This document shows positions 1,975-2,509 of a stretch of 22,225 nt of DNA, one piece after another. The first letter of the stretch is position 1. Every line of letters begins with the position of its first letter. Made by a program: the position numbers and the translations under genes. The notes beneath the pieces were generated by a model, which was not told where the DNA came from, ran no database searches, and saw only the letters and a program-made list of their open reading frames with translations. The stretch is from a virus. Location: the IMG/VR virus record IMGVR_UViG_3300043399_000724, positions 1-22,225 of that record, one strand, 5' to 3'.

Positions 1975-2509
1975 TCAATGGGCGGACTACCTCTTACACA
2001 TGACGCCTACCTACCTCAACCTTCTATCGGCTGTGCTGGCCTGCGGCGCCATGTACCCTTTACCGACCGCCGTGCCCAGTTGTTACGTGAGCTATCGGGT
2101 GGCTAGCCCGCTACCTCCAGCGCTTGCGAATTCCCAGATTCCGGCCCGGGTTGATCGTGTGCCATTGCCTTGCGGCTCCGGCTATGCTGGTTTCCGCTTC
2201 GGCTTTCGCTTCGGCGGGGCGTGCGCCCCTTTGTGAGGGGAGGTCGTATATCGCTCCGCTTTCGCAGAGCTAGGGCCGTGTGGTAGCCCGGGTAATTTTC
2301 TCGCCCTGTTTTGTGGGTGCGGCCCAGAGTAAGCACCTTGCGGTGTTTGGTGGCCCATTAGCTAACGCGCCCTGACGATCCCAGAACGCAGAAAGGCCCT
2401 TTTCTGCTGCGCTCTGTGCTTGGACGGCGGTTGGGGCCGAAAGCCCCACAGAACGCATGAGAAAAGGGCCTCATGCTGATGTTTATCCTATGCCGTCCAA
2501 GCAGTGGAT
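1975..2509 (-). ncRNA. putative large structured non-coding RNA
   Basis: No credible gene occupies this stretch. The minus-strand transcript can form the following. A perfect 11-bp helix pairs 2502-2492 with 2428-2418 and encloses two hairpins: GCATGAG/CTCATGC (2476-2455, loop GCCCTTTT) and TGGGGC/GCCCCA (2448-2432). Next comes hairpin GCAGAAA/TTTCTGC (2407-2388, loop AGGGCC). The loops of the first and third hairpins are complementary. GGGCCG (2325-2320) pairs with CGGCCC (2278-2273). GNRA-capped stems lie at 2345-2334 (GCAA), 2270-2253 (GAAA, 7 bp) and 2176-2167 (GCAA), and GGGGC/GCCCC at 2229-2216. GNRA loops appear in these stems only when read on the minus strand, which sets the direction. 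It is not RNase P RNA or tmRNA by their signature sequences. Size and style recall the large ornate phage RNAs (ROOL, GOLLD), but membership is untested. Ends are approximate. Confidence 0.6.

Follow-up and report, generated by a model that had tools for sequence, protein, structure and literature searches.

The window analysed here is a stretch of 22,225 nucleotides from a viral record (IMG/VR IMGVR_UViG_3300043399_000724). Its positions 1975-2509 hold no gene with a family match, which bears out the gene-free stretch described in the initial annotation. On the minus strand of this stretch lies an RNA of about 520 nt (1987-2509), supported by the match to a covariance model, R1, at 2490-2310 and by nhmmer matches to the relatives L247, L201 and L232. 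The next gene downstream of the RNA that has a family match lies outside the RNA, also on the minus strand, and encodes a Sak single-strand annealing protein (1230-1823; PF06378, E 4.8e-44). At 20-80, 369-437 and 964-1021 there are three sites resembling integron attC (RYYYAAC..GTTRRRY) that form imperfect hairpins, the first copy being degenerate; with the small minus-strand ORFs between them they make up an array like that of integron cassettes, next to Sak in this phage contig.

All parts of the RNA are given on the minus strand. A putative promoter, TTGCGC-17-TAAGAT (2516-2544), was read from the sequence. Domain A (2378-2509), for which helix pairing was checked in the window and covariation in relatives, consists of a pseudoknot closed by P1 (2509-2506 with 2381-2378), with H1 (2503-2492 with 2428-2417; 12 bp, perfect), H2 (2471-2460 with 2405-2394; 12 bp, perfect), H3 (2457-2449 with 2416-2408; 9 bp) and an apical hairpin (2447-2443 with 2437-2433). 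P1 in the window is only 4 bp long (AUCC/GGAU), at the read-off transcription start and directly before the core. H2 is followed by a U-rich, terminator-like tract (2384-2393), degenerate in the window (UUCUGCGUUC) and UUUUUU in most relatives. Domain B starts with an invariant 18-nt core, CGTCAGGGCGCGTTAGCT (2360-2377), after which come a GGCC/GGCC stem with an inserted GCAA-capped hairpin and then GCACCCACAAAA (2310-2359, by alignment to R1), the window's form of the family motif GNACCCARRA. The 3' end is a mini-ORF, ATG TGT AAG AGG TAG (MCKR*; 1987-2001), placed after an AGG-rich stretch.

RNA folding gave the minus strand of the stretch a z of -2.93 against dinucleotide shuffles, with 1 of 100 shuffles equally stable, and the plus strand no excess stability over shuffles (z -0.57). 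Comparison with homologs changed several structural details that had been proposed from the single sequence. The perfect helix reported as 11 bp is present, but its real length is 12 bp. The complementarity of GGCCCUUUU and AAAAGGGCC, suggested to be a kissing-loop pair, is also present and extends to 12 bp, but it does not join local hairpins: in homologs it is the conserved long-range helix H2. Because the strands of H2 enclose H3 and the 3' strand of H1, H1 and H2 form a pseudoknot, which replaces the three-way junction originally drawn. A local hairpin, GCATGAG/CTCATGC, is missing in most relatives. Of the hairpins, at least three, said to be GNRA-capped on the minus strand only, two have stems of at least 4 bp (CACC-GCAA-GGUG and GCUCUGC-GAAA-GCGGAGC), but the third (GCC-GCAA-GGC) has a stem of 3 bp only; the plus strand has one other GNRA hairpin with a stem of at least 4 bp. 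The promoter placed at the first helix falls below the threshold of a consensus scan in the window, but a predicted RNA start at this helix holds for the family, because promoter-like boxes (TATAAT/TATACT-like) sit about 11 nt before it in many relatives.

The minus strand from 2509 to 1987 belongs to a large RNA family specific to phages, previously unlisted and without an Rfam match. Neither the window nor its near relative L103 was among the 42 relatives used to build the covariance model R1 (162 positions, 26 nested pairs). The model finds the held-out window on the minus strand at 2490-2310 with 70.3 bits (E 4.4e-16), its sole match in 22 kb. H1 lies outside the model, and in the window it pairs at 12 of 12 positions. 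The features of the family present in the window are the H1 x H2 pseudoknot with H3, the U-rich tract, the CGTCAGGGCGCGTTAGCT core and the ACCC motif. With the window RNA as nhmmer query (2520-1930), L247, L201 and L232 match positions 118-548 (E 3e-8 to 8e-7); the long 3' part of the window RNA is therefore also common to a small subclass. A pattern specific to the window's subclass returned no close sister of the window, and a second one found, among true members, only L201, L232 and L247.

The first relatives came from a profile search of contigs with related Sak genes or terminases, and the RNA is missing in most of the Sak or terminase relatives searched. The strongest common block, the 18-mer at the start of domain B, occurs unchanged in at least 119 stretches of viral contigs. 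A search for it in the genomes of 84,980 bacteria and archaea gave 2 exact matches, neither extending into the motif, which is chance level, and did not detect the family in bacterial genomes. Cultured phages almost lack the family: the collections of cultured phages and plasmids gave only one GenBank record, MW202484.1, a metagenomic podovirus and itself environmental. The annotation of that record (L294, 33533-33892) includes a hypothetical protein, UOF77725.1, that overlaps the RNA and was probably called in error. Family RNAs measure about 250-520 nt and usually occur once per record, the record of L176 having two model matches. No earlier description of the family was found in the literature, of which coverage was partial. 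A conserved protein frame, named at the outset as the contrary case, does not run through the core, and indels are not multiples of three. The proposal of a large structured phage non-coding RNA is strongly supported by this, by the held-out covariance-model match and by two covarying pseudoknots.

In type-1 copies, domain A begins with the promoter-like TATAAT/TATACT box, followed by GUUG..., the 5' strands of H1, H2 and H3 and the apical hairpin, and continues with the 3' strands of H1, H3 and H2, a U-run, 10-20 nt and the core. The domain is pseudoknotted, since H1 crosses H2 and H3. Covariation was controlled by permuting whole 3' strands among sequences. In type-1 copies, H1 is 92.9% paired against 68.5 ± 1.9% after permutation (maximum 73.7), H2 97.5% against 81.2%, and H3 89.2% against 71.1%; the values for a local 5' hairpin are 95.5% and 91.7%. 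Short matches in Sak or terminase contigs differ in sequence yet keep the H2 pairing, with GGCCCTTTT/AAAAGGGCC in the window, GGCTCATCCC/GGGATGAGCC in L103 and GGCCATTTAC/GTAAGTGGCC in L021. A U-tailed long-loop hairpin before the core was found in 63 of 83 non-redundant relatives, compared with 10 of 361 random positions.

Domain A is swappable, several unrelated types preceding the same core. In L176, L194, L259, L260 and L271, the place of the terminator-like domain A directly 5' of the core is taken by compact H-type pseudoknots (e.g. CTACCTCCCCGACAGGTAGTCGGG); by eye, the L176 type (L176, L194, L259, L271) has no U-run. The 5' GUUG strand of type 1 (A2) can pair with CAAC at two places, one local and downstream, the other distal and before the core, and these alternative pairings could possibly constitute a two-state switch.

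P1 joins the 5' end of the RNA to the bases directly before the core. Its mean stem over all domain A types is 5.11, against 4.26 ± 0.15 after permutation, and in non-type-1 copies 4.81 against 3.63 (reached in 0 of 1000 permutations); within type 1 alone the signal is weak (88.6 against 85.7%). Because P1 links both, domains A and B are one RNA that reaches past the U-run, and because P1 spans the U-run, the functional RNA reads through it.

Domain B is closed by CAGGG/ACCCU. Its covariation was measured on 40 pairs, including the pseudoknot GAUUGA/UCAAUC, in 32 class-i copies, a subclass different from that of the window. In these copies 96.1% of cells are paired versus 74.2% when shuffled, 274 cells have two-sided changes versus 85, and slid controls reach 29.8-42.5% paired. 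The pseudoknot alone is 97.4% paired versus 63.2 ± 3.8% permuted. Covariation in class-i domain B is overwhelming; on the closing helix it is uninformative, because CAGGG/ACCCU is invariant. The covariation in homologs that the initial annotation had called for is thus present in helices of both domains. The other subclasses, including that of the window, have the core and the stem with ACCC in common, and the sequence after these differs. Two variants of domain B were also seen: in L197 and L205 the core is tandemly duplicated (CGTCAGGGCGCG...CGTCAGGGCGCG) within one RNA locus, and L265 (3402-3470) has a natural internal deletion in which the 5' core and the 3' tail, start codon included, are retained.

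In the best-covered subclass, domain B ends in a Shine-Dalgarno sequence and a start codon. Counts refer to the 46 non-redundant copies with the tail CACCCUUGGGGAACCURUG, i.e. to part of the copies. The start codon is ATG in 39 and GTG in 7; as the pattern used for searching already demanded R at the first base, the A/G restriction is not in itself independent evidence, which comes only from the absence of other tails. Codon 3 is mostly Lys or Glu (AAA or GAA). The mini-ORF stops within 8 codons in 26 of the 46, its frame runs straight into a gene of at least 40 codons in 13, and it ends at or near a gene start in 17; in 16, and in the window, there is no adjacent gene to lead into. Several copies have a TTGACA-type promoter directly after the mini-ORF. 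The tail of the window's subclass was compared with L201 and L247 by eye: the window's ATG TGT AAG AGG TAG, with Lys at codon 3, fits the start-codon feature of the family, and L201 ends in ATG GGT AAG. Translation initiation at the end of the RNA, whatever the downstream gene may be, is indicated by the ribosome-binding site (RBS), by the start codon and by the many copies in which a gene is fused or coupled to it.

The RNA sits in the replication or early regions of many phages, for example adjoining Sak in the window, and is also found by capsid or terminase genes. Downstream genes vary widely (replication initiator, capsid, terminase, methyltransferase). The first downstream gene is codirectional with the RNA in 50 of 64 cases and the upstream gene in 45 of 61. 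Replication initiators account for 8 of the 65 neighbouring proteins scanned.

A structured RNA that is so conserved and so common in environmental phages must serve infection in some valuable way. The reading we favour, with a probability of roughly 0.45, is a portable promoter-RNA-RBS leader that would control entry into the next gene in cis. The RNA would be transcribed from its own promoter, the box before P1, and RNA polymerase would have to pass domain A, which is folded as a pseudoknot about a U-tailed terminator-like hairpin and may affect elongation or termination. P1 ties the 5' end, with domain A, to the bases directly 5' of the invariant core; domain B, the compact pseudoknotted core closed by CAGGG/ACCCU, would control ribosome access, the folded RNA presenting or hiding the RBS at its base. 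This RBS would start the tiny ORF, which in many copies is fused or coupled to the gene that follows, so that the downstream frame would be controlled in cis. We tentatively suggest that such a pseudoknot-gated, terminator-like domain coupled to a structured ribosome-entry domain may be a widespread phage-specific expression switch or ribosome-recruiting RNA; if true, it would be unlike any known regulatory RNA. Against a leader in cis stand the copies with no adjacent gene after the mini-ORF, the window among them, and the TTGACA-type promoters that come next in several; the widely differing downstream genes also count against it, although a cis regulator need not show such variety. Further points against the favoured reading are the domain A types without a U-run, such as that of L176, and P1 spanning the U-run.

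A trans role stays nearly as likely, because the downstream genes vary and 16 copies have none. The RNA could then stand alone, as a protein or ribosome partner, a decoy or an RNA-only assembly of the GOLLD/ROOL kind, with the RBS serving its own turnover or its neighbours. One copy per genome (except the record of L176) in very different neighbourhoods, a promoter-like box of its own, the retention of RNA and start codon where no gene follows, and phage specificity, as in GOLLD and ROOL for the most part (PMC12286853), would suit such a role; a 3'-terminal RBS and start codon reading or coupling into a gene in 30 of 46 copies would be unexpected for a purely trans-acting RNA. It is unlikely that the RNA acts on polymerase or the origin, either as an element of antitermination or attenuation comparable to HK022 put or as a primer transcript for replication comparable to ColE1 RNAII. 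The terminator-like hairpin in domain A and the replication initiators among neighbouring proteins agree with this, but capsid and terminase regions are also among the contexts, the most conserved part, domain B, comes after the U-run, and put, which sits in early leaders, is far smaller and simpler. HEARO, the omega RNA of IscB (RF02033), was tested hardest because of its similar layout: a variable 5' stem domain, a closing helix and a tail into an RBS and ORF start, in the same order, with a tail that by eye is similar (CUUGG..GGGGAAC) in HEARO copies upstream of IscB. The HEARO model does detect IscB loci, yet it has no match on the window or on the RNA of relatives, with one weak 15-bit match in the record of L172 away from the RNA; in the reverse direction, 23 IscB loci gave no match to R1 at E up to 10. 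No RRXRR (IscB-type) nuclease was found near the new RNA in 18 records, with a profile that does find IscB in Chloroflexota. The promoter-like box abuts P1, which at this predicted start site would leave no apparent space for a 5' guide. HEARO was rejected as the family by the two model searches in opposite directions, with the IscB loci as positive control, and the reading as a relative or relic of it is largely refuted and very improbable. Chance folding in a gene desert, for which only the GC-rich sequence speaks, is refuted by the at least 119 contigs with the core, the held-out R1 match and the covariation of domains A and B.

Transcription through domain A, ribosome binding and action in cis or trans are directly testable, because the family has pseudoknots that covary, a promoter-like box ahead of the RNA and a start of translation that is conserved.

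The Rfam 15 covariance models gave nothing meaningful on the window or its relatives at gathering and permissive thresholds, among them group I and II introns, tmRNA and known riboswitches, all rejected. HK022 put is a terminator-associated cis element in phage transcripts (PMC9378689), from which the new RNA differs by its length of about 250-520 nt, its many contexts and its RBS. OLE is likewise a large ornate bacterial RNA, but the new RNA lies in phage and not in a Bacillota chromosome, has different parts and has no match to the OLE model. A resemblance to ROOL/GOLLD-type RNAs had been noted without a match to either, and the search upholds this: the GOLLD and ROOL models had no match on the window or its relatives. 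Membership is also not supported in view of an unrelated invariant core, of the putative kissing loop being an intramolecular helix and of the window having no tRNA (ARAGORN) and hence no tRNA island, near which GOLLD and ROOL are often, though not always, located; the new RNA also ends in a translation start. What they have in common is that GOLLD and ROOL are large, pseudoknotted, phage-encoded RNAs of unknown function (PMC12286853), and the family described here, equally large, pseudoknotted and phage-encoded, would join them with more handles on its mechanism.
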